From the NCBI GenBank assembly GCA_021776295.1, contig JAJFGE010000181.1, positions 1 through 64,000 of the forward strand: a DNA stretch of 64,000 bases. The letters run 5' to 3'. The translations under genes and the position numbers were made by a program. Shown here in pieces: positions 43,891 through 59,826 of this stretch. The notes beneath the pieces were generated by a model, which was given only the letters and a program-made list of their open reading frames with translations, did no database searches and had not been told where the DNA came from. This DNA comes from Hyphococcus sp. (lineage in GTDB: Bacteria > Pseudomonadota > Alphaproteobacteria > Caulobacterales > Parvularculaceae). Within the stretch, counting starts at the first letter, position 1. Each line of letters begins with the position of its first letter.

Positions 43891-44712
43891 TTAATAATAT
43901 TGGTTGGCCATCAGCGCGCGCGGTGATTTATTCAGGACCGTGCCGATCACATTGGACTTGGCAAGGATGCGTTTTGCTTCCTTCAATTCCGCCACCTGGG
44001 TCTGGCCGCTGGCGGCGACAAGCAGGACGCAATCGACTTTCGGTAGAAAGGCGAGCGTGTCGTCGCAGCCGAGCAGCGGCGACATATCGAAAATCACGGT
44101 GCGCGCATGATAGTCAGTGGTTGCTGTATGGATGAGTTGATCGGTTCGTTCGGAGGTTAAAAACTCTGCGCCTCTGCGGGTCACGCGCTCATTTGGCATC
44201 ACCAGCAAATCGTTAAGATCCGGGCGCACCGTGACCTCATCAAGCTCGCGTTTGCCTTCAAAATAGTCGAGCAGAGAGGGGGGCTCGCGAAAGCCGAGAT
44301 AGCGCGCCACGCTAGGCCGGTAAAAATCGAGATCGACGAGCACCGGATGCATGCCGGTTTTTGCGCCGATGGCGATCGCCAGATTAATTGCAGTAACGGT
44401 TTTTCCTGCGCCGGCGCCGGGAGAGACGATGGCTATGGTCTTCCATCCGGCGGCGTCCATCTTCTGTAAAACGCGGGTGCGAAGAACACGATAGGCGTTG
44501 AGCACCGGGTCTTGTTCGTTTGAAATGATGCGATGGGCGCTGAACCTGTCAAAATCGCATGCCGCCGGCGCAAAACGGTCATCTGAAGGCGGATGATCGC
44601 CGCCAGCGTCATTGGGCGCGAGGCGCGGCGCCGGCGGGCGTTTCGTAGCCGTTAGGGCGGCTTGTGTTGCGCCGCTGCGCGCGCGCGTTACTGCTTGTCT
44701 AATACGATCCAT
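43891..44712 (-). CDS. Polysaccharide-associated tyrosine-autokinase-like P-loop ATPase
   Basis: 273 residues. The ATPase core has Walker A GAGAGKT (99-105), an A' motif LVDLDFYRPS and Walker B VIFDMSPLL, as in BY-kinases such as the cytoplasmic half of Wzc and the XrtA-associated kinases. The usual Tyr-rich C-terminal tail is reduced to two tyrosines at the very end (NQYY). It lies on the minus strand just after the Wzz-like protein gene, its expected membrane activator; together they would control polymer length and export. A dispersed palindromic repeat fills the space between the two genes. Confidence 0.9.
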   Translation of the reverse strand: MDRIRQAVTRARSGATQAALTATKRPPAPRLAPNDAGGDHPPSDDRFAPAACDFDRFSAHRIISNEQDPVLNAYRVLRTRVLQKMDAAGWKTIAIVSPGAGAGKTVTAINLAIAIGAKTGMHPVLVDLDFYRPSVARYLGFREPPSLLDYFEGKRELDEVTVRPDLNDLLVMPNERVTRRGAEFLTSERTDQLIHTATTDYHARTVIFDMSPLLGCDDTLAFLPKVDCVLLVAASGQTQVAELKEAKRILAKSNVIGTVLNKSPRALMANQYY

Positions 44713-44721
44713 TACACCAAC

Positions 44722-44836
44722 CTAGAGCATTTTCGTCTTTTTGAATTGTGTAACTGCTCTAGTCCTTTGTTCTGCGTACTTGTGTATCCGTAAACCGGTT
44801 CCCATTTTTCGCGAAGGGCTCCAATCGGAAATGCTT
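44722..44836. repeat. Dispersed palindromic repeat, copy 5, inside the polysaccharide operon
   Basis: It begins CTAGAGCATTTTCG and contains GCTCTAGTCCTTTGTTCTGC and the core in reverse orientation (TAAACCGGTTCCCATTTTTC, 44791-44810), ending in CGGAAATGCTTAAGC. It parallels the copies near 9150 and 17760. It separates the chain-length gene from the kinase gene and overlaps the former's stop codon. Confidence 0.75.
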
Positions 44837-46454
44837 AAGCCGCTTCCGGCATGTTATCGACGCCAATCTTGCGTTGTCCGAACAATGAGAGAAATGACGG
44901 TTTTTTGTCTTTGTCGGCAGGTATATAGGGAATGACGGCGATGGGATGTTCGTCCACTAGCCCGGCCACATGATTACGGCCGCGGATGGTGGAAAATAAA
45001 ATTTCGGCCGCAAGCCCAATGCCGCCGCCGGCGGCAAGAGAGGCAAAAATAGCCAGGATGCTGAGTTTAATACGGTCCGGGCTGGTCGGACGATCCGGCC
45101 GCAGTGCTGGCTCAAGTATGGAGAATTTTTCCGCCTGTCTGTTTTCCTCGAGGTTTTCAGCAAGCTGGGCGTCCTGTTGTTTACCGCGAACGTCCTGATA
45201 CTCCTGGAATGTGTTTTCATAATCGCGCGTCAGGCCGGCAAGGTCGCGCTCGACCGCAGGGGTTCTGCCGATGCGGGCCTCATAATCTTTAATCTGGGCG
45301 CGCAGGCCGTCAGATGATCGGTCCAGCATGCGGATACGGTTTTCAATAATCGCGAGCCGGCCTTCCATTTGTACGCCGGAAATATCCGTCGCCCCGTTGC
45401 GGGTCTCGCGCGAAATTTTTTCGCTGAGCGTATCGCGCGCGATCGTTACCGTGACTTCTGCAGCGGCGATGTCTTCGGCGCTCGCCGTTTCGGTTCGCTC
45501 GGTTGCAAACAGCGCCGCCTCGGCGTCGCGTAACGCCGCCCGCAGCCGTTGAATTTCCGCGCTCGGCGCCAGCTGGCGTTTGATTGCGGCGATTTCGCTG
45601 CGCTTGGCCTGAATTTCCGGATAGGTGTCCAGATAAGTTCCCCGCAGCCGCGCCAGCTCGCCTTCAAGACGCAATAACTCTTGCGACAATCCGTTCTCGG
45701 AACCGACGTTAGAGGTCAATTGAGTTTCCAGGAAGCGTTTTTCTTCTTCCAAGGCTTCGATGGATCGCTGCGAACTATTCAATTCGCGCGTCGTGCGTTC
45801 CAGCATATCGAGATGCATGTTGAGATGTTCAGGCAATGCATCTGTATTCTCGACTTTAAAATTTGAAATCCGGCTTTCAATCGCACTGACTTCCGCACGT
45901 AACTTCGCCGCTTCGCGCTCAAAAAATTCGGTTGTGTTAGAGGCGCCGGCAGTTCGTGTGCTGACATCTTCGCTGAGGAACAGCGTCATGAATTCGTTGG
46001 CGACGAGATAGGCTTTGGCGGGATCGCGATCGGTATAGGAAATGGTGAAGGCAATGGTGCCGTCTTTGGCCGAGCGCCGGCCGCGGTCAATTGTGATCAG
46101 GGATACGTTAAGGCCGGATCGCATCAAATCAACGCGCTCGCTTTCAGACAGGCGCGTGGTCCGCGGAAACACAGTATATTTGTCGGCGACCTGAAGCAGC
46201 CGATTGCGCGTCATCACCCGCTGGCGGATGGTTTGGATGCGCTCCTGGGCGTAGGCGTTGATGGTCGAGCGGATGAACTCGGTCGGGATCTGCTGCGATT
46301 CCACCAAAATCGTACCCTTCGCGGTGTATTTGGGGGGCAGCAACATCACTGTCAAAATGCCAAGCGGCGCAATCACCAGCACGGGGATGAGGAAATACCA
46401 AACCCGGCGCTGTAGGATGATCAGCACATCTTCAAGTGAAAATTCGTCGCCCAT
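44835..46454 (-). CDS. Wzz/GumC-type polysaccharide chain-length determinant (XrtA-locus-like)
   Basis: About 539 residues from an ATG ending at 46454 (a TTG five codons upstream is less likely). Transmembrane segments near 21-42 and 465-490 flank a large periplasmic part with long coiled coils (about 160-420), including ESRISNFKVENTDALPEHLN. A PERDL-type RTPAVERDLAGLTRDYENTFQEYQD region precedes the second helix, as in PEP-CTERM-locus chain-length proteins. It partners the downstream kinase and divides polymer into modal lengths or gates export. It diverges from the WecG-STAS gene across a 597-base region. Confidence 0.92.
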   Translation of the reverse strand: MGDEFSLEDVLIILQRRVWYFLIPVLVIAPLGILTVMLLPPKYTAKGTILVESQQIPTEFIRSTINAYAQERIQTIRQRVMTRNRLLQVADKYTVFPRTTRLSESERVDLMRSGLNVSLITIDRGRRSAKDGTIAFTISYTDRDPAKAYLVANEFMTLFLSEDVSTRTAGASNTTEFFEREAAKLRAEVSAIESRISNFKVENTDALPEHLNMHLDMLERTTRELNSSQRSIEALEEEKRFLETQLTSNVGSENGLSQELLRLEGELARLRGTYLDTYPEIQAKRSEIAAIKRQLAPSAEIQRLRAALRDAEAALFATERTETASAEDIAAAEVTVTIARDTLSEKISRETRNGATDISGVQMEGRLAIIENRIRMLDRSSDGLRAQIKDYEARIGRTPAVERDLAGLTRDYENTFQEYQDVRGKQQDAQLAENLEENRQAEKFSILEPALRPDRPTSPDRIKLSILAIFASLAAGGGIGLAAEILFSTIRGRNHVAGLVDEHPIAVIPYIPADKDKKPSFLSLFGQRKIGVDNMPEAA

Positions 46455-47051
46455 TCTAGAACATTCCAATTCAACGCAGCGTCAGATATCGCGCCAATGT
46501 GGCCGTTATTCGGCCTCCAGGCCATGGGTTGCAAGCCCAGACTGTAAGCCCCGTACTGCGCCATGGGCGCCAGCTTCGAGGTTGCAAGCTTCAGGCCGGT
46601 TAATAAATTGCGCGCGAGCGGCTACAGCGACCCGCTAAGCTGTTCGTTTGGCTGTGACATTTGGCGCAATATAATATTCAGAACAGGCCCTCTGCAACTG
46701 TCCATATCCTGACGGAATGCCGCAATTGGCTGGCCGGTGACGCCGGTTACACCGCTAAAGGTGGTTTTTGGGCGCATGCGCGCCTTTTGGGCTTTGTCGC
46801 TAGCCTGTCTTTGGGTTAATTTAATCGCCAAAATGCCGCTATAAAGGGTTAAACTTGCCGGCGGCTGATGGCGGCGCAGGGCTTTTCGCTTATGACCGCC
46901 GGCTGGGCCAAGGCCCAGGCGGGCAAACGAAAAGCTGGCCCGGGCCTTGCTCAATACCGGCCAGATGACCGGTCAAAGGGTCGTTAACGCCGGCTCAGGG
47001 TTCAGTTTGGAACGCTGTTTTTGTTAACCAGAATATCAAAGGCGCGCTTTT
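46455..47051. other. Divergent intergenic region of the exopolysaccharide locus
   Basis: These 597 bases hold no convincing gene. A minus-strand open frame at 46622-46954 has an atypical, low-complexity composition. GGTTGCAAGC occurs twice (46527-46536 and 46580-46589), each a few bases after a CCATGGG. Two GTTAAC palindromes lie near 46983 and 47025. A plus-strand promoter-like pair is listed separately. Confidence 0.6.
46648..46675 (+). promoter_or_regulatory. Candidate promoter toward the glycosyltransferase genes
   Basis: TTGGCT (46648-46653) and a perfect TATAAT (46670-46675) are separated by 16 bases. It lies about 380 bases upstream of the WecG-STAS start, so the leader would be long; the match could be chance. 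Confidence 0.3.
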
Positions 47052-48338
47052 ATGGCAGGATTACGGGCAAAACCTTCTTCAGCGCCAGACGGCGCTGTGG
47101 AAGACGGCGCTGTGGAAAAAGATCCAGCCAAGCAATCCGCGCCTCAACCAGGGCCTCCAGGCGTTGCCGGACAGGCGACACAGCTTGCGCCAGGCGATGA
47201 TTTTGATCGTGACGTTTGGTGCCTGTTGGGCCTTCCGGTTGACGCCGCTAGCGTTGATCGGGCGGTTGCGGAGATCGATGCGGCGGTGCGGACCGGGCGC
47301 AAGCTTTCTTTTGTTACGCCGAATGTGAACTGGCTGGTGCGGGTCTTGAGGGATGGCGCTGCGCGGCGCGAGGTTCTGGACGCTGATCTTAGTTTTATCG
47401 ATGGCGCGCCGCTGGTTGCGATGGCGAGAATGCTGGGCATTCCGGCGCCGTCGCGTGTTGCCGGCGCGGATATATTTGAAGCTCTGCGGCGCCGCCCGGG
47501 TTTTGGCGCGCGCCGTACAAAAGTGTTTTTCTTCGGCGGGCGCGACGGCGCGGGCGCGGCGGCGGTAGAGGCTTTGGACGAAGAGCAAGGCGGCGTAGAG
47601 GCGGTTGGCTGCCTCAATCCGGGGTTTGGCGACGTTGAGACCATGAGTGCGCCGAAGATTATCGCCGAGATCAATGCTGCGCGCCCGGACTTTGTCGTTG
47701 TTGCGCTGGGCGCCGCGAAAGGCCAGGCTTGGATTGATCGCAACAAGGATCGATTAGATGCGCCAGTGATCGCGCATCTTGGCGCGGTGGTGGATTTCAC
47801 CGCCGGCCAGGTCGCGCGCGCGCCGGAGATGGTTAAAAAGCTGGGCCTTGAATGGCTCTGGCGGATCAAAGAAGAACCTGCATTGTGGCGGCGTTATGTT
47901 GGCGATGGCGCGGCTCTGCTGACGGTCATAGCGCGACGCTTAGCGCCTCAATTGTTGGCGTTGCGTCATCGGCAAAGCAACAATGCAGCGGCCCCGGCTC
48001 AGGCCGATGTCCGTCGCGGCGCATCGCGGACCGCCATCGTCCTTTCCGGGACGTTTACGGCGGCAAACCTTGCCGCTGCCCGTAAGGCGTTTCGGAGCGC
48101 GGCCGAGCATGGGAGCGATGTCGTGCTTGACCTTTCCGCGGTGCGCAAATTTGACCGGTCGTTTCTCGGGCTGGTCTTGATGTTGGAAAAACATGTCGCC
48201 AGAAGCGGTCGGACGCTTTACGTAGACGGCGCGACGGCGCGTCACCGAGCGATGCTGCGGGCGAACGCTATGGATTATCGCTCTGTGGTTACGGCTGAAG
48301 AACGAATTTTGGATACCGGGCGCGCCGCAACGGCATAG
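47052..48338 (+). CDS. WecG/TagA/CpsF-family glycosyltransferase fused to a STAS domain
   Basis: 428 residues. Residues about 55-290 are a WecG/TagA/CpsF transferase: LSFVTPNVNWLVRV, ADLSFIDGAPLVAMARMLG (Asp117-Gly118 at the active site), VFFFGGRDG and GAVVDFTAGQVARAPEMVKKLGLEWLWRI. Such enzymes add an N-acetylmannosamine-type or related sugar to a lipid-linked intermediate. Residues about 318-420 form a STAS/anti-anti-sigma-like fold (RTAIVLSGTFTAANL, DVVLDLSAVRKFDRSFLGLVLML), with Ser370 where SpoIIAA is phosphorylated. The two parts are joined by a basic linker. A 15-base direct repeat (47088-47117) encodes DGAVE twice near the start. It is first in the rightward exopolysaccharide series. 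Confidence 0.88.
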   Translation: MAGLRAKPSSAPDGAVEDGAVEKDPAKQSAPQPGPPGVAGQATQLAPGDDFDRDVWCLLGLPVDAASVDRAVAEIDAAVRTGRKLSFVTPNVNWLVRVLRDGAARREVLDADLSFIDGAPLVAMARMLGIPAPSRVAGADIFEALRRRPGFGARRTKVFFFGGRDGAGAAAVEALDEEQGGVEAVGCLNPGFGDVETMSAPKIIAEINAARPDFVVVALGAAKGQAWIDRNKDRLDAPVIAHLGAVVDFTAGQVARAPEMVKKLGLEWLWRIKEEPALWRRYVGDGAALLTVIARRLAPQLLALRHRQSNNAAAPAQADVRRGASRTAIVLSGTFTAANLAAARKAFRSAAEHGSDVVLDLSAVRKFDRSFLGLVLMLEKHVARSGRTLYVDGATARHRAMLRANAMDYRSVVTAEERILDTGRAATA

Positions 48339-48463
48339 ATAGCGGCGCCGAAAGCGTTATGAGATCAAAGAGTTTGGACCTGTTTAGGGGGAAGTAAATG
48401 CCTAGCAAAATGAACCACCCGTCAATCGACCGGCTACGCAGTGTTAAGCAGCGAGGAAATATT

Positions 48464-50842
48464 ATGCGTCGGATCCAGATTGCAGCAATCGCTGCGCTTG
48501 GCATGATTTCAGCGGCCTGCTCATCGCCGGAAGCTAAGATTGAGAAGTATTACATCAGCGGACAGGAATTTCTTCAAAATGGCGAATACGGAAAAGCCAA
48601 TGTTCAATTTCAAAATGTATTGAAAATTGATGAGACCCATGTGCCAGCGTTGATTGGCATGGCGGAAATTGCTGAAAGCAAGCAAAACCTAAAAGCGATG
48701 TTCGGGTTGTATCAACGGGTTGTGCGGCTCGACGCCGCCAACACCTTCGCCCATATCCAGCTTGGCAAACTTTATTTGATCGGCAGCGATGAATCCGCTG
48801 CGCTCGAATCTGCTGAAACTGCGCTTAAGCTTGAACCAAATTCTATCGACGCCATTGCACTGAAATCCGGCGTCTTGCTGCGCCTCGGCGATACGGAAGG
48901 CGCCGTTAGATTGGCGCGCCAGGCTGTCGCCGTTCAACCGGCGCATGTAGAGGCAACCACCGTGCTTGCGACAGTGCGCGGCATGAGCGGCGATATGGAA
49001 GGCGCCATCAGCGAGCTTGATCGCGCACTTAATGTAGATCCTAAGATTGCCGTGCTTCAGCTTTTGCGCATTCAGTTATTCTCGCAGCTCGGGCGCGATG
49101 AAGATGTTCTTGAAGGCTTTGCGCAACTGGTAAAACTGTTCCCAGAAGAACCGGCCTACCGGCGGGCTTATGCGATGGAATTCATTAAGCGGAAGAATTT
49201 TGCCGACGCTAGGGAACAGATGGAAATCCTTGTTGGTTTGGACGTTGAAAATGATGAAGCCAAGCTGGATGTCGTACGGATTGTAAACGCGGAAGATGGC
49301 GCCGAGGCCGCCGAAGCCCGGCTCCAGGCTTTTGTCAAAGAGTTTCCGAAAAACCAGGGCTTACGGTTCGCGCTAGTCGATCTGTTGCATGATCGGGGCG
49401 CCTTGGATGCATCGGTCGCTGCGCTTGAGCCGCTGATGAAGTCCGATGACGTTGCGATTGTGTTGCGCGCAAAGAACAAGCTTGCGGTTTTGTATTTGCG
49501 CGAAGGCGATCGCGACAAGGCGGAAGCGCTGGTCAATGAAATTCTTGACGAAGATGGCAACAATACTGATGCGCTCATCCGCCGGGCGAGTTTTCAGCTT
49601 GATAACGGTGAGTATGAAAGCGGCGTTGCCGATTTGCGCACTGCGCTCAACAACAACCCCGACCTGGTTGAGGCGATGGTTTTGATGTCGAGTGCGTTTG
49701 AGCGTCAGGACAATATCGACTTTGCCAGAGCCGAGCTTGCAAAAGCGTTTGAAACCAGCGGCAAGACGGCGCTTGTTGCAAATATTTACGCGAAATTTTT
49801 AACCCGTCATGGCGATTCAAGGCGCGCGGAAGACATTTTGGTGCAATCGCTGGCAGCCTTTCCTGGCGATTTGGATAATCTGAAACTTCTCGCCGCTGTG
49901 CGCCTTGATATTCAAGATTGGCAGGGCGCGGACGAAATCGCGGCCATTATATCATCGCTTGATGTGGCGGCTGAAAATGATCTTGCGAGCCAGATACGCA
50001 CAGTAGCGCTAAGCGGTCTCGGCGATTACGACCAGATCATCGATATGCTGACGGCGCAAAATAAAAGCGCGCCGCTGGAAAGCCGGCCCTTGGCGATGCT
50101 GGTCTCCGCTTATTTGAAAGCGGACCGCATTGATGAGGCTGAAGAGCTTTTAAAAAATGTCATTGCGTCGGATAAAAATAATTATGCCGCCTACGTGCTG
50201 CTGGCGCGAACATACGGCGCGCGCGACGATGCTGCTGCTGGCGAGACGATTCTGCTTGAGGCTGTTGACGTCGAGCCGTCCCGTGGCGAGGCGTTTGAAA
50301 TTCTCTACCGCTACTATCTTGCCCGCGGCGAACGCGATAAAGCGATTGCGCTTATTGACGACGGCATTGTGCGAGCGCCGGATAACGCCGCACTGAAGTT
50401 CTTCAGTGCTGACTATTTGGTAACTGCCGGCAAGCTGGAACAAGCGCTTGATATCTATAGCGACTTGATTGAAGAGCGCCCGAGCGACCGCATTATCGCC
50501 AATAACTTTGTCAGCCTGTCGAGTGACTTGCGCAAAGATAAAAAGAGCATCGCGCGCGCACTCGAAGTCGCACGCGTGCTCGAGCAAGATGAAACTGCGC
50601 TGGTCCAGGATACGGTTGGCTGGGCGTATTATCGCGCTGAGCAATATGACCGCGCTTTGGAGTTTCTAACCAAGGCGGCGGCCGCGACGAATAATGGGGA
50701 AATATTCTACCATCTCGGCGCGGCGCAAATCGCCGCTGGCGAGACTGAAGCCGGCCAGGCCAGCCTGAACAAGGCGCTGGATGTTGGTGGAGGGAATTTT
50801 CGATTTGAATCCGAAGTGCGCGCGCTTCTCAATCAGCAATAG
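48464..50842 (+). CDS. prsT: PrsT-like TPR-repeat lipoprotein of the exopolysaccharide/PEP-CTERM type locus
   Basis: About 792 residues from ATG 48464, which follows a GAGGAAAT ribosome site and gives a lipoprotein signal peptide (MRRIQIAAIA with a SAAC lipobox). A longer start at 48398 also has a GGGGGAAG site but would bury the signal, so it is less likely. The rest is a long array of TPR-like helical pairs (for example GQEFLQNGEYGKANVQFQNVL, then many repeats to the end). PrsT-type proteins are encoded in XrtA loci and probably scaffold export across the periplasm. Its place beside the ATPase/GT fusion and chain-length genes supports that assignment. Confidence 0.88.
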   Translation: MRRIQIAAIAALGMISAACSSPEAKIEKYYISGQEFLQNGEYGKANVQFQNVLKIDETHVPALIGMAEIAESKQNLKAMFGLYQRVVRLDAANTFAHIQLGKLYLIGSDESAALESAETALKLEPNSIDAIALKSGVLLRLGDTEGAVRLARQAVAVQPAHVEATTVLATVRGMSGDMEGAISELDRALNVDPKIAVLQLLRIQLFSQLGRDEDVLEGFAQLVKLFPEEPAYRRAYAMEFIKRKNFADAREQMEILVGLDVENDEAKLDVVRIVNAEDGAEAAEARLQAFVKEFPKNQGLRFALVDLLHDRGALDASVAALEPLMKSDDVAIVLRAKNKLAVLYLREGDRDKAEALVNEILDEDGNNTDALIRRASFQLDNGEYESGVADLRTALNNNPDLVEAMVLMSSAFERQDNIDFARAELAKAFETSGKTALVANIYAKFLTRHGDSRRAEDILVQSLAAFPGDLDNLKLLAAVRLDIQDWQGADEIAAIISSLDVAAENDLASQIRTVALSGLGDYDQIIDMLTAQNKSAPLESRPLAMLVSAYLKADRIDEAEELLKNVIASDKNNYAAYVLLARTYGARDDAAAGETILLEAVDVEPSRGEAFEILYRYYLARGERDKAIALIDDGIVRAPDNAALKFFSADYLVTAGKLEQALDIYSDLIEERPSDRIIANNFVSLSSDLRKDKKSIARALEVARVLEQDETALVQDTVGWAYYRAEQYDRALEFLTKAAAATNNGEIFYHLGAAQIAAGETEAGQASLNKALDVGGGNFRFESEVRALLNQQ

Positions 50843-50919: not shown

Positions 50920-52998
50920 ATGTACGAACAATTTTTTGGTCTGACTGAAAAGCCTTTTTCGATCCAGCCCGACCCCGCTTTTTTATATTGGGGCCGGACC
51001 CACAGACTTGCTTACGCCATGCTCGAATATGGCGTTCTCAACCATGCCGGCATATCGGTCATTACCGGCGAGGTCGGGTGCGGCAAGACCACTCTCGTCC
51101 ATCGGTTGCTCGACCAGCTATCCGACACCCATACTGTCGCGCTACTGTCGAATATCCAGCAAGGCCGCGGCGATTTGTTAAGCTGGGTGCTGATGGGCTT
51201 TGGCGAGCCGTTTGCCAATAAGACCCATGTTGAGCTGTTCTCACATTTGCAATCTTTCTTTATCAGCGAATATTCCAAAGGCCGGCGCGTCGTCTTGATC
51301 ATTGACGAGGCGCAAAACCTTTCCACTGACATGCTCGAAGAATTGCGCATGCTGTCCAACATTAATGCTGGCAAAGACCAACTCTTACAGCTTATTTTGG
51401 TCGGGCAACCGGAATTGAAGGAGCTTCTCAACAGGCCGGAACTGTTGCAATTGGCGCAGCGCGTCGGCTCGGATTTTCACCTTACGCCGCTCAATGTAGA
51501 GGAAGTCCACGCCTATATCGATACTCGCCTGGCGATAGCCGGCTGCCGTCGAAGGGTATTTACTGACCGCGCAATTGATTCGATTGCAGAGCATTCGCGC
51601 GGCGTTCCCCGAGTTATTAACATCATCACCGACACCGCCCTTGTCTATGCTTTTTCCTCTGAGGAGTTGGTCGTCGGTGTGGAGACTATTCGTAATGTTA
51701 TTCGCGACAAGTCGGAATTTGGCGTGTTTGGACTGGCGTCTGATGAGGCCGCCGCGCCGCCGCTAAGACCGGCTAGCGAGGCCGGCATTGACGCTTTCGC
51801 CGATAGCTCAAAAAAAAACCGACGTAACGACGTCGACGAAGCCATTACAGTAGAGCGCGATGACCGGCGCCCGCAATCGCCCTCGCCGCAGGGCGAGCCT
51901 TTCGAGAGCCAACAGCGCGACCACGACGTTATCGTCGATGTTGCGCCGCGCGCTGGCGGTCAAATGCACGAGGCGAGCCCTCGTTTTTCCGGCGTGAAAG
52001 AAGAATCCTCCATTACCGGCGTTGTTGTCGTTGCATCCGGCAACAAAACCTCGCCTGAGGCGGCGATCCGCTCTGCAGGAGACGGGCGGGCTATTGTTTT
52101 TGTGGCGGTCGGCGGTGCGCCGGATGCGACCGCAATTGCCAAAAGCGCGGGCGCGGTTATAGCCAAAGGACCGGAACGCTCGTTCAGTCCTGCGGGCCGC
52201 GCGCGCAATGCTGGCTATCGGCAGCTGAAGAAGATCGCGCCGCATCTGCAATATGTGCAGTTTGTTGATGCTGAAACCGCGCTTGACCCGGACTGGATTA
52301 CAACGGCGGAAAAATTTATGGCGCGCCGCCCTGAAGTGTCGATTGTGACCGGCGCTATCAGATCACCGCGCGGATCGAAGATAGCCTTGGCGCCGGTGGG
52401 CGGGCGCGATCATGGCGATGATGAAGGCGAGATCCAGTGCGTCTTCGGCGGTTCGGCCTTGATGCGTGTAGAAAGCTTTGAGGCGGCGGGCGGTTTTCGC
52501 GGCGATCTGTTGACGGCGGAAACAGTGGATTTATGTATCCGCCTGCGACGGCGCGGGGCCCGGATTTGGCGCTTGGGCGAGGGGATGGCGCTGTGTGAGC
52601 CTGCGCCAAAATCTGGCGGCTGGTGGGCGCAAAGCCGCCAACGCGGGTTTGACAATGCCTATTGCGCCTCGTTGCATGGCGGGCCGCCCGAACGCATCGG
52701 CATATTGGACACTGTATTGGCGGTTTTATGGGGGTTTTTATTTCCTGCAGCGGTCATCATTGCGGCGCTGCTGGGCGCATTTGTGGCGATAAAGCTTTCT
52801 CCGGCAACGCCGCCGATATTTATTGCGGGCGCCATTCTGGCCTTCGGCGCTGGCGTATTTGTCTTCAGGATGGCCGCCTCGGTTGTGGTGCGGGGCGTGT
52901 TCAGAGCCTCGTCCTGGAAGGCTGCATTCCCGGCCGTCATGGGACGGTTTCCAGAATTTTTGGGCGCTTGCAAGTTGTGGTTCGGGGCAAAGCGATAA
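50920..52998 (+). CDS. ExeA/XrtA-type AAA ATPase fused to a membrane glycosyltransferase-2-like domain
   Basis: 692 residues in one uninterrupted frame. Residues 1-270 match the ATPase of XrtA exopolysaccharide loci (MYEQFFGLTEKPFSIQPDP start, Walker A GEVGCGKTT 50-58, Walker B VVLIIDEAQ with Asp129/Glu130, then VGQPEL and SRGVPRVIN). A disordered acidic/basic linker runs from about 275 to 362. Residues about 365-570 look like a GT-A fold: GRARNAGYRQL, the metal-type motif FVDAETALDPDW (Asp450-x-Glu452), GGSALMRVESFEAAGGF and ETVDLCIRLRRRG. Two membrane helices near 600-622 and 632-652 follow. The ATPase alone is usual; this fusion is not. The UDP-sugar-binding N-terminal strand of the GT part is weak, so catalysis is uncertain. 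Confidence 0.85.
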   Translation: MYEQFFGLTEKPFSIQPDPAFLYWGRTHRLAYAMLEYGVLNHAGISVITGEVGCGKTTLVHRLLDQLSDTHTVALLSNIQQGRGDLLSWVLMGFGEPFANKTHVELFSHLQSFFISEYSKGRRVVLIIDEAQNLSTDMLEELRMLSNINAGKDQLLQLILVGQPELKELLNRPELLQLAQRVGSDFHLTPLNVEEVHAYIDTRLAIAGCRRRVFTDRAIDSIAEHSRGVPRVINIITDTALVYAFSSEELVVGVETIRNVIRDKSEFGVFGLASDEAAAPPLRPASEAGIDAFADSSKKNRRNDVDEAITVERDDRRPQSPSPQGEPFESQQRDHDVIVDVAPRAGGQMHEASPRFSGVKEESSITGVVVVASGNKTSPEAAIRSAGDGRAIVFVAVGGAPDATAIAKSAGAVIAKGPERSFSPAGRARNAGYRQLKKIAPHLQYVQFVDAETALDPDWITTAEKFMARRPEVSIVTGAIRSPRGSKIALAPVGGRDHGDDEGEIQCVFGGSALMRVESFEAAGGFRGDLLTAETVDLCIRLRRRGARIWRLGEGMALCEPAPKSGGWWAQSRQRGFDNAYCASLHGGPPERIGILDTVLAVLWGFLFPAAVIIAALLGAFVAIKLSPATPPIFIAGAILAFGAGVFVFRMAASVVVRGVFRASSWKAAFPAVMGRFPEFLGACKLWFGAKR

Positions 52999-53021: not shown

Positions 53022-54236
53022 ATGAAGCTGGCTTATTTTATTAACCAGTATCCCGGCATTTCCCATAGTTTCATCCGCCGTGAAATCCAGGCGTTGGAGC
53101 GTGGCGGCGCTGAGGTTTTTCGTTACGCCATCCGTCCGTCCAAGGATGAGGTGATCGCGCAGGAAGATTTCGATGAGAACGCCAAAACACACCACATCAT
53201 AACCTCCGGCGCCGGCCCGATAATAAGATCGATTGCCAGTGAAATCGTGGCCAACCCGCTGGGCGCTGTGCGGGCGCTGGGTGCGGCGGCTTCCATGGGC
53301 TGGCGGTCGGAGGCTGGGCTGGTGCGGCATCTGTTCTATTTTGGCGAGGCGCTGGTCCTTGCCAATTGGCTAAAGCGCGATGGCTTGCGCCATGTCCATG
53401 CGCATTTCGGCACCAATGCGGCGACGATTGCGATGCTTGCGGCGCCGCTGGCGCAAGCGCGCTTTAGTTTCACAGTTCATGGCCCGGAGGAGTTTGAAAA
53501 GCCGGCGCTTATTTCGCTTCGGCGCAAACTGGAGAACGCCGCGTTTAGCGTCGCTATTTCACAATTCGGCGCGAGCCAGTTGAAGAAGCTTTCTTCCCCT
53601 TCCGTCTGGTCTAGAATAAAGATCGTTCGGTGCGGTATAGAGCGCACCTTCTACCAGGGCGCCGGAAGCGATGTTGTCTCTGCGCCGCATTTCATTTGCA
53701 CGGGCCGTCTGTGTGCAGAAAAAGGCCAGATAGATCTGGTTGAAGCGACGGCGCGTGTCGTGAAAGATGTTCCTGACATCAAAGTCACGCTGATCGGCGA
53801 CGGGCCGATGCGTGGTGAAATCGAGGCGGCAATTAAAAAGCACGACATTGCCGGCAATATTGTGCTGGCGGGGTGGCGGACGCCGAGCCAGGTGCGTGAT
53901 GCGCTGCTTGGCGCGCGCGGGTTTATCTTGCCGAGCTATGCGGAAGGTTTGCCGGTTTCAATCATGGAGGCGCTGGCGTTGCGTCGGCCGGTGATCACAA
54001 CTTACATTGCCGGCATTCCTGAATTGGTGACGGATAGTGTTTGCGGCTGGTTGACGCCGGCCGGCGATGTCGAGGCGATCGCTGCGGCGTTGCGCGTGGC
54101 TATCAGCGCCGGTGATGAGCAGATTGCACAGATGGGCGATGAGGGGCGCCGCCGGGTAGAGGCGATGCACGATATCGATATCGAAGCCGGGCGCCTTGCT
54201 GAGCATTTCTCAGCCGTTCTGGATGCGCGCCGATGA
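53022..54236 (+). CDS. GT4-family glycosyltransferase
   Basis: 404 residues with the GT-B fold. The N-terminal acceptor domain begins MKLAYFINQYPGISHSFIRREI, and HVHAHFGTNAATIA and FTVHGPEEF are typical of GT4 enzymes of exopolysaccharide pathways. The C-terminal donor domain has FICTGRLCAEKGQIDLVEA, LIGDGPMRGEIE and the E(x7)E-type motif in PSYAEGLPVSIMEALALRRPVI. It would transfer a sugar to a lipid-linked repeat unit on the cytoplasmic side of the membrane. Its stop overlaps the next GT gene by four bases. Confidence 0.92.
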   Translation: MKLAYFINQYPGISHSFIRREIQALERGGAEVFRYAIRPSKDEVIAQEDFDENAKTHHIITSGAGPIIRSIASEIVANPLGAVRALGAAASMGWRSEAGLVRHLFYFGEALVLANWLKRDGLRHVHAHFGTNAATIAMLAAPLAQARFSFTVHGPEEFEKPALISLRRKLENAAFSVAISQFGASQLKKLSSPSVWSRIKIVRCGIERTFYQGAGSDVVSAPHFICTGRLCAEKGQIDLVEATARVVKDVPDIKVTLIGDGPMRGEIEAAIKKHDIAGNIVLAGWRTPSQVRDALLGARGFILPSYAEGLPVSIMEALALRRPVITTYIAGIPELVTDSVCGWLTPAGDVEAIAAALRVAISAGDEQIAQMGDEGRRRVEAMHDIDIEAGRLAEHFSAVLDARR

Positions 54237-55429
54237 GCACAGTTTTTATTATTGTGCTTTGGGGTGTCGTGCTGGCGGTGTCGGCGCCGGCGGTCCTGCT
54301 CGCTATCGAAACCCTGGCGGCGTTTTTCCCGCTGCGCCGCCCATCCGCCTCAGCACCGCCTTCGTCTGTGGCGGTAATCGTGCCCGCGCATAATGAAGGC
54401 CGTCATATTGTTGCGACGTTGCGCGACCTTCGCGCACAACTGCGCCCGACCGATCGGCTAATCGTTGTCGCCGATAATTGCACCGACGACACCGCCGCGA
54501 TTGCGCAACAATGCGGCGCGGAAGTTTTTGTTCGCGTCGCACCCGATCATCGCGGCAAGGGCTATGCGCTGCAATATGCGATTGATCGTCTGCGCGATGC
54601 GCCGCCGGAATGCGTTGTCTTCTTTGACGCCGACTGCCGAGTGGGGGAGGGTGCGCTACACTATTTGGCCGGCGTCGCATCAGCAACCGGGCGCCCGGCG
54701 CAGGCGCTATATATTATGAATGCGCCGGACGATGCCGGGCCCGGAACCGGTGTTTCCGCCTTTGCCTGGATTATGATCAACCGTGTACGCATGACCGGGG
54801 TTTCAAACCTTATTGACGCCACACGGTTTACCGGGGCGGGGCTTGCCGCGCCATGGGCGCTGATCTCCCGTTTGGATTTCGGCGCCGGCGACATTACCGA
54901 AGATCTGGTGATGACCCTGAAGATGGCGCTTGCCGGCGCGCCGCCGGTATTTGCGCCTGACGCACGGGTGATCAGTTTTTTTCCGACCGCAGAGGACGCC
55001 AACGTCACTCAGCGCGCACGGTGGGAGCATGGATCGCTGGAGATAATGGCGCGCCGTGCGGCGCCGGCGATGCTGTGCGGAATTTTCCGGGCCGATGTGA
55101 GGCTGATGCTGCTGGCCGCCGATGCAATGATACCGCCGCTGGTTGCGCTTGGCGCCGGGTTGAGCTTTGCGGCGCTGGCGTCGGCTTTAGCGCTCGGATT
55201 TGCCGGGCCTGGACCGTTGATCGCCATACTGACGTCAATGGCGCTCTTTGCACTGGCGCTTATCGCCGGGTGGCTGCGCTTTGGGCGCGCGGTTCTGCCG
55301 CCGTCTCAATTATGGGCGTTGGCGCCATTTATGCTTCAGAAGCTGAAAGTCTACGGGCGTCGCGGGCGGGCCTCTTCAAAGACCTGGACCCGCACCAAGC
55401 GCGGCGATGATGGCGGTGAGACGCGTTAA
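54233..55429 (+). CDS. Membrane GT2-family glycosyltransferase
   Basis: 398 residues. An N-terminal membrane segment (about 3-27) precedes a GT-A domain with VAVIVPAHNEGRHI (nucleotide-sugar strand), VVADNCTDDT, RGKGYALQYAIDRL and the metal motif FFDADCRV. A later ITEDLVMTLKMALAG segment carries the acidic catalytic motif (TED), and QRARWEHG matches the QxxRW-like motif of processive GT2 enzymes. Two or three helices follow (about 300-355). The start overlaps the preceding GT4 gene (ATGA). It probably builds part of the repeat unit or polymerises. Confidence 0.9.
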   Translation: MSTVFIIVLWGVVLAVSAPAVLLAIETLAAFFPLRRPSASAPPSSVAVIVPAHNEGRHIVATLRDLRAQLRPTDRLIVVADNCTDDTAAIAQQCGAEVFVRVAPDHRGKGYALQYAIDRLRDAPPECVVFFDADCRVGEGALHYLAGVASATGRPAQALYIMNAPDDAGPGTGVSAFAWIMINRVRMTGVSNLIDATRFTGAGLAAPWALISRLDFGAGDITEDLVMTLKMALAGAPPVFAPDARVISFFPTAEDANVTQRARWEHGSLEIMARRAAPAMLCGIFRADVRLMLLAADAMIPPLVALGAGLSFAALASALALGFAGPGPLIAILTSMALFALALIAGWLRFGRAVLPPSQLWALAPFMLQKLKVYGRRGRASSKTWTRTKRGDDGGETR

Positions 55430-55570
55430 GCGGCCGAATTCGTCGCATTGTGAAGGAAACTACTTTAGCGGATACATAATTCGACAGGGGCCTGCGATGC
55501 GATATTGGTATTGGGTTGCTGGCTTGTTCGGCGAAGGCGGGCTTCGCCGCCGGAAAAGAGGGTGGCGTTT

Positions 55571-56398
55571 ATGAGCTATCTTGAAGTCGCAGATACGCAA
55601 TTCGGATTCTTCGATGTTATGGAGATGAAGGAAAAGGGCGCCGATCTCCACAATAAATATGTTTCGGCCGAACCGTTCCCGCACATCGCCATTGATGATT
55701 TTTGTTCGCCGCAAATTTTGGACGCGTGTATCGACGCGTTTCCGCAAACGCCGGACCCTGACAGTCGCAGCTTCGACCGCGATCAGGAGCGTTACAAGAC
55801 AAGTTTCAATCCGGACTTTCTGACGCCGCAATTGCGTTCGTTTTTTTACTCACTGAATTCACGGCCGGTTATTGAATTTCTGGAAAACATGACCGGCATC
55901 ACAGGGCTTATTCCAGATCCTTACTTCACCGGCGGCGGATTTCATCAGACTAAGCGTGGCGGCCATCTTGATGTGCATGCCGACTTTAATCTCCATCGCA
56001 AACTTGGCCTTGAGCGGCGCTTGAATCTTTTGATTTATCTCAACAAGAATTGGGAGGAAGGTTTCGGCGGCGAGCTTGAGCTTTGGGATCGCGATATGAA
56101 AAATCGCTTCCATAAAATAGTTCCGTTGTTTAATCGCTGTGTCGTGTTTTCAACTAGCGGCAATAGCTATCATGGACATCCGGCGCCGGTCGCACATCCC
56201 CACGGCGATGCACGCCGCTCTATTGCTCTTTATTACTATACGGCAACGTGGGACAAAGCCGCTCGGGCGAAGACGACGCAGTTCAAACCTCGACCGCAAA
56301 CGGGTGATAAAACCGATTGGGGTGTGAGGCGGAGCGAGATCATTAACGATTTGTTACCTCCGATAGTGGTGCGGGGCTTAAGGAAACTTAGCCGTTAA
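55571..56398 (+). CDS. 2-oxoglutarate/Fe(II)-dependent oxygenase-like protein of the polysaccharide locus
   Basis: 275 residues from ATG 55571 after an AAGAGGGTGG site; the longer frame from 55505 adds a leader with no homology character. The double-stranded beta-helix region has GGHLDVHADFN (candidate HxD pairs His132/Asp134 or His136/Asp138), LNLLIYLNKNWEEGFGGELELW, a distal His in SYHGHPAPV (201 or 203) and RRSIALYYYT with the Arg that usually binds 2-oxoglutarate. This matches 2OG-Fe(II) oxygenases of the prolyl-hydroxylase-like type. In this context it may oxidise a sugar, a lipid carrier or a protein side chain (inference). Confidence 0.85.
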   Translation: MSYLEVADTQFGFFDVMEMKEKGADLHNKYVSAEPFPHIAIDDFCSPQILDACIDAFPQTPDPDSRSFDRDQERYKTSFNPDFLTPQLRSFFYSLNSRPVIEFLENMTGITGLIPDPYFTGGGFHQTKRGGHLDVHADFNLHRKLGLERRLNLLIYLNKNWEEGFGGELELWDRDMKNRFHKIVPLFNRCVVFSTSGNSYHGHPAPVAHPHGDARRSIALYYYTATWDKAARAKTTQFKPRPQTGDKTDWGVRRSEIINDLLPPIVVRGLRKLSR

Positions 56399-56715
56399 GC
56401 GCCTCGCGCCAGCCTGTCGGTTTTTCGGCAGGCTTAGGTTGATAAAATTTTAGATTCATTTTCAGGGCGCCTATAGTAACTTGGTCTTCGTGATCGAGGA
56501 TTCGTGCGGTCGCGCTTGAAACTTGTGAAAATTTAATCCGTAATCGGCTTATTTTCATCAAATTTTTTTCAGGAGCTTTAGACAAAAGAAATCTAAGGTT
56601 CCTAATTTCTTACCTGTTGCACAATCGCATCGTGCAAGGAAATTTTGTACGAAGTGTGGCGAGAAAGATACTATTTACTGTTCGATTGCAGACAAATGTG
56701 TGAGTGAGCCTGATT
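56399..56715. other. Intergenic region upstream of the G8 protein gene
   Basis: The 317 bases have no gene. A stem GCCTGTCG (56412-56419) / CGGCAGGC (56426-56433) follows the oxygenase gene but has no T-run. A near-perfect palindrome lies at 56617-56637. The region is clearly more AT-rich than the genes around it, consistent with a promoter for the G8 gene. Confidence 0.6.
56617..56637. promoter_or_regulatory. Operator-like 21-base palindrome upstream of the G8 gene
   Basis: TTGCACAAT (56617-56625), three central bases CGC, then ATCGTGCAA (56629-56637): the arms match at eight of nine positions. It lies about 80 bases before the start codon in an AT-rich stretch, the size and place of a dimeric regulator site. 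The regulator is unknown. Confidence 0.5.
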
Positions 56716-59700
56716 ATGAGCAAATATTTTCGCTCCGGCGATACTGTTCTTTCTGCCAATTCAATGAACATAAACGATTTGTTAATGGCCAGCCGGCTTG
56801 GCGCCATCAAGGCGCCGCTGGCTAAAGGCCGCCGCGCAAGAAAACGCGAAAGCCGTAAGAAGATGATGAGCGCCAGCCTGTTGGCGCCGCTGCTGGCGGC
56901 GGAAGGTTGCCTCAGTGTTGGCAAAGAAGATATTGACCTTGGCGCTGCGGCGCCCGCGCCGCCCGCGCCGGATAATGGAAATGATGCTGGCGGTGTTGAT
57001 GTTGAACTCAGCGCGGTCGATGACCACGTTCACGCTGAAGTCGGTCAGCCGCTGCATATTCCCGTTTCACAATTGCAAGCCAACGACGCCAACGCAAACT
57101 CGGGCGGATTGGAAATCGTCCGTGTCTTTGATGCGGTCAATGGAACCGTATCTTTGGACAGTTCTGGCGTAATGTTTGTACCAACTGCAGGCTTTAAGGG
57201 GGTGGCGACATTTTCCTATGAAGTCCGGGATGCGGATGGTTCGGTCAGCACGGCATCCGTTGAGGTTATTGTAGGCGATGTGCCGCATGAAGAGCCCGCC
57301 GGCTTCACTGAGCATGGCGAGTCTGGCGGGCACGAACATTTTGGCGGTTCGAAAGCAGAAGAGCATGCAGGCCTTTTAAATCTCGTGCCGGTGGAAGAGG
57401 CGACGCATGTCGCCGTTAATAATGGGTCCTGGTTTGATCCCAATACCTGGGCGAACGGTCAGGTGCCGCCGGACGGCGCGAAAGTCTTGATCTCCGAGGG
57501 TGTTACGGTCGCCTATGATGGCGAAAGCGCAGTTTCCCTGTTTACTGTCCGTGTCGATGGCGTGCTTGATTTCGCTACGGATCAAAATACCTTTATGGAA
57601 GTTGACACACTGGTTGTTTCGCCAGCCGGCACGTTGACTATCGGCTCCGCCGACAATCCGGTGGCGCCTGGCGTCGAGGCAGTTATTCAGATCGCTGATA
57701 ATGGCCCGATCGACGTTGCCTGGGACCCTCTGCTGTTGTCTCGTGGGGTTGTCAGTCAGGGAACGATTGAAATTTATGGCGACCAAAAGGACACATTCCT
57801 GAAAGTAGAGATAGATGCGATGGCGGGCGACACATCGCTTACCCTTGAGGCGCCGCCGGATGGCTGGTCTGTCGGCGATAGACTGGTTTTAACCGGGACG
57901 AAATTGCCAGTTGTTGATTGGGTGCCAGCCGGCACAAAACGCGACATCCCGACAGAAGATGAAGAACTTATCATCACAGCAATCAACGGCAACGTCATCA
58001 CATTCGATAGACCGCTGGAATTTGATCACGATACGCCGCGCGCTGACCTGAAGGCGTATGTCGCCAACTACACGCGCAATGTTCGGTTTATTACCGAAAA
58101 CGCAGAAGATTTGCCGGTATACCAACGCGGCCATGTGATGTTTATGCACTCGGACGACATTGATGTTCGCTATGCAGAATTTACTGATTTAGGACGTACG
58201 GATAAATCTGAGCGCGCCTTTGATGTGGCCAAATTGGACTCAGTAGAGTTCGACACCAATATAAAAGCACGCTACCCCTTACATATCCACCGCGCCGGCG
58301 TCAGCGATCAAGACAATCCAGCTGAACTTGTCGGCAACGCTGTTTGGGGGTCTCCGGGCTGGGGCGTGGTCCATCACGATTCAAATGCGATCATAGCCGA
58401 TAATGCCGCCTATGATGTATTTGGCGCGGCGTTCGTTGCTGAGACCGGCAACGAGACCGGGCGATGGGTCAGCAATATTGCGATCAAATCGATTGGTCTG
58501 GCCGGGATCGGGAATGACAACAATCCAAAACTTGGCGATGACGTTGCAGCGTTTGACCTTGGGCGCACTGGCGCCGGGTTTTGGTTCCAGAGCAGAATGG
58601 TTGATGCGGTAGACAATGTCGCCGCCGGCATTCCCAGCGGGCAAGGATTTATCTACTTTTCACGTGGGCTGGATGGCGATATAATTAAGATCGATCCCGA
58701 TAATTCACCCTACCCGGAAAGCTTGAACTACGCCGATGCAGCGCAGATATACAGGCCTTCAATATCTCAGTTCGACGGCAACGAGGCGTTCGCTGTGGGG
58801 TCAGGGTTTTATGTCGTCAAGCCAGGTCCCAATCAGCGTCATGATTTGCGTTCCCTCATCGAAGATTTTACAGCCTGGGAAACGCGCCTTGGCATACGCC
58901 TGGAATATACCGGCAGCTACACGCTGAAGGATATTGATCTCATTGGCGCCGGACATGGCGCTAGCGGCATTGCCCTTGGGCAAAATACTTTCGACATGGT
59001 TGTGAACAACGCCAATATCGCAGGCTTTGATATCGGCGTCACCATGGACAAAACCACCACCTTCACTAACTTTGACGGCGACTTCCGATATGTGTTCATT
59101 GATGTCAATATTAGCGGTGCCGCCACTGATTTCACTAATATTGATGCGAACGATCAATTCCTGACAGCAGCAGATCTCGTTGCCGGCCGGCTGGAATTTG
59201 TGTCCGGACTTGCAGATTTTCCACTTTTCGAACCGATCGGCGCGCCTTTTTACGGGATGAATTTACCGGGCGTGAAAACCGATAGCATCGGCTCTATCGA
59301 GCTTGGCCAGCTGGACCCCCATGTCTTTCGCGGCGAGGCGCTTGGTAATGCGATTGAACGCGAGGGCTATTGGACATTGCCCGATGGGCGGGCGGTGACA
59401 GTTTTCGAACGCTATTTTTCCGACCGCGCAACAGGCGAGACGATCAAACAGGCAACATTTATTGAAATTCCTGGCGGCGAGGCGTGGGCGCAACAGCAAA
59501 CCGGGCTTGGGACGCCGGTCTACCATGGCGTCCTTGACGTCAATAGCGCGGCGCCGGTGGCGGTGCATGACCAGGATGCGATTGTCAGTTCAGGGAGTTC
59601 GGTTATCATCGACGTCCTCGCAAACGATTTCGATCCTGATGGCGATGCGATTGCCGTGGATGGGTTCGCGCATCCGACAAATGGCCGCGTGGATTTGAAT

Positions 59701-59826
59701 GCCGATGGAACCGTAACCTATACGCCGGATCCAAACTTTGTCGGGATGGATGAGTTCTGGTATTGGGTTGAAGACGACAATGGCAACTTCGCCAAGGCTG
59801 AGGTTTACGTCACCGTTGAGCCGTAA
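56716..59826 (+). CDS. Large G8-domain beta-helix protein with cadherin-like ends (putative surface polysaccharide-acting protein)
   Basis: About 1,036 residues from ATG 56716; GTG 56704 four codons upstream is an alternative, and neither has a strong ribosome site. Numbering here is from GTG 56704. An unusual N terminus has a basic cluster (KGRRARKRESRKK, 41-53) before a short hydrophobic stretch ending in AAEGC, perhaps an export signal. A cadherin-like Ig domain (about 98-192) is followed by a G8 domain (about 239-325; GSWFDPNTWANGQVPPDG, VRVDGVLDF, GTLTIGS). A right-handed beta-helix region then carries KARYPLHIHRAGVSD, resembling the RYPIHFH motif of CEMIP/TMEM2-type proteins. A second cadherin-like domain (about 948-1040; VLANDFDPDGDAI) ends the protein. 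No PEP-CTERM or membrane C terminus is present. Confidence 0.85.
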   Translation: MSKYFRSGDTVLSANSMNINDLLMASRLGAIKAPLAKGRRARKRESRKKMMSASLLAPLLAAEGCLSVGKEDIDLGAAAPAPPAPDNGNDAGGVDVELSAVDDHVHAEVGQPLHIPVSQLQANDANANSGGLEIVRVFDAVNGTVSLDSSGVMFVPTAGFKGVATFSYEVRDADGSVSTASVEVIVGDVPHEEPAGFTEHGESGGHEHFGGSKAEEHAGLLNLVPVEEATHVAVNNGSWFDPNTWANGQVPPDGAKVLISEGVTVAYDGESAVSLFTVRVDGVLDFATDQNTFMEVDTLVVSPAGTLTIGSADNPVAPGVEAVIQIADNGPIDVAWDPLLLSRGVVSQGTIEIYGDQKDTFLKVEIDAMAGDTSLTLEAPPDGWSVGDRLVLTGTKLPVVDWVPAGTKRDIPTEDEELIITAINGNVITFDRPLEFDHDTPRADLKAYVANYTRNVRFITENAEDLPVYQRGHVMFMHSDDIDVRYAEFTDLGRTDKSERAFDVAKLDSVEFDTNIKARYPLHIHRAGVSDQDNPAELVGNAVWGSPGWGVVHHDSNAIIADNAAYDVFGAAFVAETGNETGRWVSNIAIKSIGLAGIGNDNNPKLGDDVAAFDLGRTGAGFWFQSRMVDAVDNVAAGIPSGQGFIYFSRGLDGDIIKIDPDNSPYPESLNYADAAQIYRPSISQFDGNEAFAVGSGFYVVKPGPNQRHDLRSLIEDFTAWETRLGIRLEYTGSYTLKDIDLIGAGHGASGIALGQNTFDMVVNNANIAGFDIGVTMDKTTTFTNFDGDFRYVFIDVNISGAATDFTNIDANDQFLTAADLVAGRLEFVSGLADFPLFEPIGAPFYGMNLPGVKTDSIGSIELGQLDPHVFRGEALGNAIEREGYWTLPDGRAVTVFERYFSDRATGETIKQATFIEIPGGEAWAQQQTGLGTPVYHGVLDVNSAAPVAVHDQDAIVSSGSSVIIDVLANDFDPDGDAIAVDGFAHPTNGRVDLNADGTVTYTPDPNFVGMDEFWYWVEDDNGNFAKAEVYVTVEP

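Follow-up and report, generated by a model that had tools for sequence, protein, structure and literature searches.

The EPS locus

The window, i.e., the whole 64,000-nucleotide stretch of DNA that was analyzed, contains an exopolysaccharide (EPS) locus in which two minus-strand genes diverge from a run of plus-strand genes. The minus-strand pair encodes an XrtA-type tyrosine autokinase (43891..44712; TIGR03018-like at 128.8 bits, below the cut-off of 230.65) and a chain-length determinant/co-polymerase (44835..46469; TIGR03007-like at 196.8 bits, below the cut-off of 278.85), both of which are conserved neighbors. The plus-strand run begins with a WecG/TagA/CpsF glycosyltransferase that carries a C-terminal STAS domain (47052..48338) and continues with a PrsT-like TPR lipoprotein (48398..50842; TIGR02917 at 260.2 bits, below the cut-off of 312.2). 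The latter ends 77 bases upstream of the subject of this report, a plus-strand gene (50920..52998) that joins an XrtA-type AAA ATPase, a disordered linker, a probable pseudo-glycosyltransferase, and two membrane helices in a single 692-residue protein. Its adjoining XrtA-type partners each score below their own equivalog cut-offs. Beginning 23 bases after the fused gene are genes for an EpsE-like, GT4-type glycosyltransferase (53022..54236), an EpsU-like, GT2-type glycosyltransferase (54233..55429), and a 2OG-Fe(II) oxygenase (55505..56398). A large protein with G8, CEMIP-type beta-helix, and tandem-95/cadherin-like repeats (56704..59826) marks the end of the locus.

About 30 relatives have broadly the same gene order, with genes for QueG and FzlA at the end; the GT4 and oxygenase genes are absent from some of the relatives' loci. 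The large G8/tandem-95 protein is kept at the end of most EPS loci. The STAS part of the WecG protein is retained in 34 loci, and this WecG-STAS protein represents a second putative regulatory fusion, encoded two genes upstream of the ATPase fusion.

Architecture of the fused protein

An earlier reading of this DNA (the original prediction) had proposed an in-frame fusion of an ATPase to a glycosyltransferase-like domain with neither a stop nor a frameshift. The sequence bears this out: the gene starts with ATG and runs from 50920 to 52998 as one uninterrupted frame with no internal stops. The ATPase domain occupies residues 1-268 (50920..51723; this and all following coordinates within the gene are on the plus strand) and has TIGR03015-like (280.7 bits) and AAA_22 (101 bits) matches. 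Its Walker A motif, GEVGCGKTT, is found at residues 50-58 (51067..51093), and its Walker B strand (51286..51309) ends in Asp129-Glu130, precisely where these elements had been placed. In an alignment of the 31 full-length fused sequences, G50, G53-T58 (including K56 and T57), D129, and E130 are invariant, and the two motifs as a whole are invariant or almost so.

An Ala/Pro-rich linker (residues 271-362; 51730..52005) follows the ATPase; in homologs, its length is 96-204 residues. We used the 31 fused sequences to build an AlphaFold2 model of the protein, in which the linker has pLDDT values below 50 at residues 271-342 and 344-362, as befits the disorder that had been predicted for it. Beyond the linker are a catalytically degenerate GT-A (GT2-like) domain (residues 363-592; 52006..52695), identified by a profile match and by structure comparison, and two membrane helices (residues 595-626 and 632-658; 52702..52893). 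The model is moderately confident for the ATPase core and confident for the GT-A domain, and the two C-terminal helices in it are long. They coincide with the hydropathy segments 593-631 and 629-658, and thus the predicted pair of membrane helices is present by both measures. The relative placement of the ATPase and GT domains in the model is unreliable (pTM 0.47). Hydropathy analysis revealed no hydrophobic helix in this genome's canonical ATPase or in the two unfused ATPases tested.

Family placement of the ATPase

Many EPS loci encode an ATPase of the XrtA type. The fused ATPase is homologous to the TIGR03015 family over 1-265 of 269 positions, its Walker A and B motifs are intact, and it is encoded with XrtA-type EPS genes (those for the chain-length protein, the tyrosine kinase, and the PrsT-like TPR protein). 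Two features set it apart from that family, namely its C-terminal pseudo-glycosyltransferase with two membrane helices and its score: residues 1-263 match TIGR03015 at 280.7-283.9 bits, below the cut-off of 324.5, which marks the domain as a divergent sister of the canonical XrtA ATPase. Judged by sequence, then, the fused ATPases are a sister clade to the canonical XrtA/PEP-CTERM ATPase. The same genome encodes a canonical XrtA ATPase as a separate copy (331.5 bits) on contig C139, where it is flanked by a gene whose sequence suggests an outer-membrane beta-barrel and by a polysaccharide-deacetylase-like gene; this contig also has one Wza-type exporter. The exosortases of this genome are found on other contigs, away from the EPS locus. 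A sequence search of the PDB with the ATPase returned no matches at E 0.01.

The supposition that this ATPase normally stands alone finds no support as worded, as TIGR03015-type ATPases often bear other C-terminal extensions. When the long ORFs of other such ATPases were checked for a hidden GT domain, their C-termini proved to be SPOR, RodZ_C, or polysaccharide deacetylase; two further long ORFs have long low-complexity tails. Among other alphaproteobacterial ATPases of this type, those at L166:1479-3455 and L167:97-2409 end in SPOR or RodZ_C, and the C-terminus of the ATPase is therefore a recurrent slot for extra domains. In a genome of the same genus (G163, contig C130), the canonical XrtA ATPase and the neighboring polysaccharide deacetylase form one in-frame fusion (L168:266-2530, minus strand; domains AAA_22, Polysacc_deac_1, and DUF3473).

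Retention of the GT-A fold and loss of catalytic residues

The original prediction had suggested that the C-terminal part be searched against profiles by itself. This search, with the C-terminal 326 residues, yielded the glycosyltransferase family PF13632 at 28.6 bits as the sole match above the cut-off (27). The usual donor-binding half of GT2 enzymes, PF00535, scores only 12.1 bits in the fused protein, versus 57-60 bits in free paralogs. Because sequence searches of the PDB were empty (the fused GT profile likewise gave no matches at E 0.01), structure comparison was needed to judge the fold. The modeled GT domain aligned with solved glycosyltransferases, and the Z-scores were 19.9 for 6p61, 19.6 for the mannosyltransferase PcManGT (over 275 residues), and 17.7 for SpsA. 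The GT2/GT-A fold is clear in the model; because of this clarity, the absence of such a fold, which had been named in advance as an outcome that would speak against the prediction, did not occur. As in PcManGT (6yv7) and the membrane GT2s, the GT-A fold is followed by helices. The fused GT also shares the motifs RARNxG and CxRxR with its free paralogs, which themselves have a weak similarity to MftF (TIGR03965).

We compared the catalytic positions of the 31 fused domains with those of 30 free paralogs. The positions were assigned by their strict conservation in the free paralogs and by the donor, DxD, base, and metal-site roles established for GT2 enzymes (SpsA and BcsA motifs); the assignment is based on alignment rather than on residue mapping to a solved structure. 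The donor-site Asp is replaced by Ala396 (52105..52107) in the window protein and is found in 0/31 fused versus 30/30 free domains. Residues 450-452 (52267..52275) read DAE, a degenerate form of the DxD motif that is DGD in all 30 free paralogs, and both of its Asp residues (450 and 452) are kept in 6/31 fused versus 30/30 free domains. Thr535 (52522..52524) occupies the place of the catalytic base, which is Asp/Glu in 1/31 fused versus 30/30 free domains, and Cys559 (52594..52596) that of the metal-site His, which is conserved in 0/31 versus 30/30. Finally, the Asn of the N-terminal strand (position 374) is kept in 3/31 versus 30/30. The whole catalytic set is present in none of the 31 fused members. 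Decay has therefore not been uniform, given the six members with both DxD Asp residues and the sole member (L038) with an Asp at the base position.

Two outcomes follow for the original prediction. Its reservation about a weak donor strand and a possibly regulatory domain is strongly upheld by the clade-wide loss of catalytic residues. The designation "glycosyltransferase," on the other hand, cannot stand as worded, because with these residues lost in the whole fused clade the domain is very probably not an active enzyme.

Despite this loss, the GT globule is under purifying selection. In pairs with measurable dS, dN/dS is 0.015-0.033 for the ATPase, 0.055-0.151 for the GT globule, 0.10-0.18 for the helices, and about 0.17-0.29 for the linker. 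Positions specific to the clade have also become fixed in this domain, with Arg or Lys at many of them (R434, K437, R469, R470, R544, R545, and R592). A degenerate catalytic site in a selected fold fits a pseudoenzyme, and the sequences indicate that the GT part is very probably a conserved pseudo-glycosyltransferase, which may have a binding or structural role. The fused clade thus departs from the membrane GT2s in having lost the donor Asp, the metal His, and the catalytic base, and in being joined to an ATPase.

A free GT of the same family, with intact catalytic motifs, is found in the EPS locus of many relatives. There is no free GT in the locus in the window's closest clade, and the window genome's own free paralog is located on contig C28. 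The notion that the in-locus free GT is the direct parent of the fused domain found no support: a long branch parts the fused clade from all free GTs. In Amphiplicatus metriothermophilus, a single frame of 729 residues (L065:6345-8534, minus strand) contains both the in-locus EpsU-like GT2 and the free GT.

Distribution of the fusion

The 31 full-length fused sequences comprise that of the window and those of 30 relatives, all in the same EPS locus. These orthologs have 45-95% overall identity, represent several genera, and include those of two isolates, Marinicaulis flavus SY-3-19 and A. metriothermophilus; because the fusion recurs in them, it is not an artifact of assembly or sequencing. 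The nearest named matches of the GT part, at 84-93% identity, are in the metagenome-assembled genome (MAG) JAADIQ010000066.1 and in Marinicaulis sp. MAGs; the window's genome is a Parvularculaceae genome near Marinicaulis.

A TIGR03015-type ATPase is present in 60 of 62 genomes of Parvularculaceae, a family of marine bacteria. The window's ATPase clade has 35 members, 31 of which are complete and fused. The other four comprise two that are incomplete but have a visible GT part and two that are cut by the end of a contig before the GT part would be reached; hence, among these 35 members from the 62 genomes, there is no complete gene that lacks the GT part. In G005, G020, and G169, three genomes of the same genus that are nearly complete, the second ATPase is absent altogether. 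Both the GT tree (100/100) and the ATPase tree (98/92) unite the fused sequences in a single clade.

Outside the family, the ATPases that are nearest in identity (58-60%) are 310-326 residues long, unfused, and adjoin a PrsT-like gene. Sister genera within the family also have an unfused ATPase beside PrsT and, in one case (L164), beside WecG as well. A phylum-wide search of 398 genomes with the full-length profile found a match in 109; beyond the window itself, the listed matches all ended within position 350 of the 728 in the profile, and thus no fusion was seen outside Parvularculaceae. When the fused GT profile was searched across the class, its only matches outside the family were free GTs of 314-386 residues. 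The scan of genome contigs for the fusion employed two short peptide patterns, which may miss distant fused forms. As far as tested, then, the fusion is restricted to one Parvularculaceae clade. The alternative raised at the outset, that related homologs are always fused, is correct within this clade and incorrect outside of it, where the closest ATPases are unfused. The parsimonious reading of these sequences is that a single fusion event took place in the Marinicaulis/Amphiplicatus ancestor, onto an ancestral PrsT-ATPase pair.

Discussion

In this report, we describe a protein in which an XrtA-type ATPase with intact Walker motifs is joined to a pseudo-glycosyltransferase. We found no description of this fusion in the literature searched, and the combination is a new domain architecture.

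The reading that we favor, with some reserve, is that the pseudo-glycosyltransferase serves as an inner-membrane anchor for the EPS ATPase and probably also as the part that docks it to the EPS assembly complex. The starting point would have been a second, XrtA-type EPS ATPase that acquired a membrane glycosyltransferase, which later lost catalysis. An ATPase that is otherwise soluble would then be held against the inner membrane, on its cytoplasmic side, by the GT-A domain and the two helices. For docking, these parts could either bind a lipid-linked glycan acceptor or form a pair with an active GT2, and ATP binding and hydrolysis in the AAA domain may remodel or gate the EPS assembly complex. 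The docking at the membrane, the partner that is bound, and the step that ATP drives are all inferred from the features described above. The original prediction that the fusion ties the ATPase to the polymer-building stage may be counted as supported.

A more specific possibility, to which we give considerably less credence, is that the pseudo-glycosyltransferase senses substrate for the ATPase: it would bind a lipid-linked EPS intermediate without transferring a sugar and couple this binding to ATP-driven remodeling of the polymerization complex.

It is rather unlikely that the GT part is a mere relic and that the sole function of the fusion is to hold the ATPase at the membrane via its two helices. 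The lack of membrane helices in the unfused ATPases examined and the gain of two in the fusion would suit such an arrangement, as would the disappearance of the catalytic residues. But the GT globule (232 residues) is under selection, with dN/dS similar to or below that of the helices, and it has conserved, clade-specific residues of its own; a pure tether would have no need of such a globule.

We regard as less likely still that the domain is an unconventional glycosyltransferase that is active, binds its donor and performs catalysis with other residues, and has its activity coupled to the ATPase. The intact fold and its purifying selection would be expected of such an enzyme, Glu534, Asp537, and the DLCxRxRRRG helix are largely retained, and a few members have both DxD Asp residues or an acidic base. 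Nevertheless, no member has the whole catalytic set, and the donor Asp and the metal His are lost in all 31. Further, the lost positions vary among the members with no convergence on an alternative set, whereas all 30 free paralogs are intact, and the PF00535 signature has been lost. Finally, although the window's genome assembly is fragmented (85.5% complete, 6.1% contamination, 186 contigs), the recurrence of the architecture in 30 full-length orthologs from several genera, two isolates, and independent assemblies, together with strong purifying selection, renders a chance fusion, an assembly artifact, or a functionless pseudogene extremely improbable.

The favored reading, that of a membrane-anchored and probably docked ATPase, has parallels in known systems. 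Production of the EPS promonan by Sphingomonas LM7 depends on the AAA+ ATPase PrmE, and the authors of that work stated that this ATPase had not earlier been linked to polysaccharide assembly (PMC11340318). Like the fused protein, PrmE is an AAA+ ATPase that is encoded with Wzz, tyrosine kinase, and WecG genes (PMC11340318). It differs in being annotated only as a single AAA+ ATPase; the comparison is one of annotation and gene order, and from the latter we infer that PrmE belongs to the same ATPase family. The GtfA/GtfB system offers an analog of how the pseudo-glycosyltransferase might work: its catalytically inactive subunit is the acceptor-binding partner of an active transferase (PMC12809243). 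The fused GT combines catalytic loss with a selected fold. GtfA/GtfB is unlike it in serving the protein O-glycosylation of accessory-Sec cargo, in being of the GT4 type, and in having no ATPase fusion, and we claim no homology.

The fused domain is a clear example of a GT-A pseudoenzyme in bacteria, and free paralogs that look active are encoded in the same genomes, often within the locus itself. The fusion also offers testable single-protein constructs in culturable strains (M. flavus and A. metriothermophilus). The union with a dead glycosyltransferase is a natural clue to the function of XrtA-type ATPases, one that points to the glycan-assembly step and to the inner membrane on its cytoplasmic side. 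If the pseudo-glycosyltransferase does act as a substrate sensor, EPS ATPases would act on the cytoplasmic, glycan-building side of the process, and not in export.
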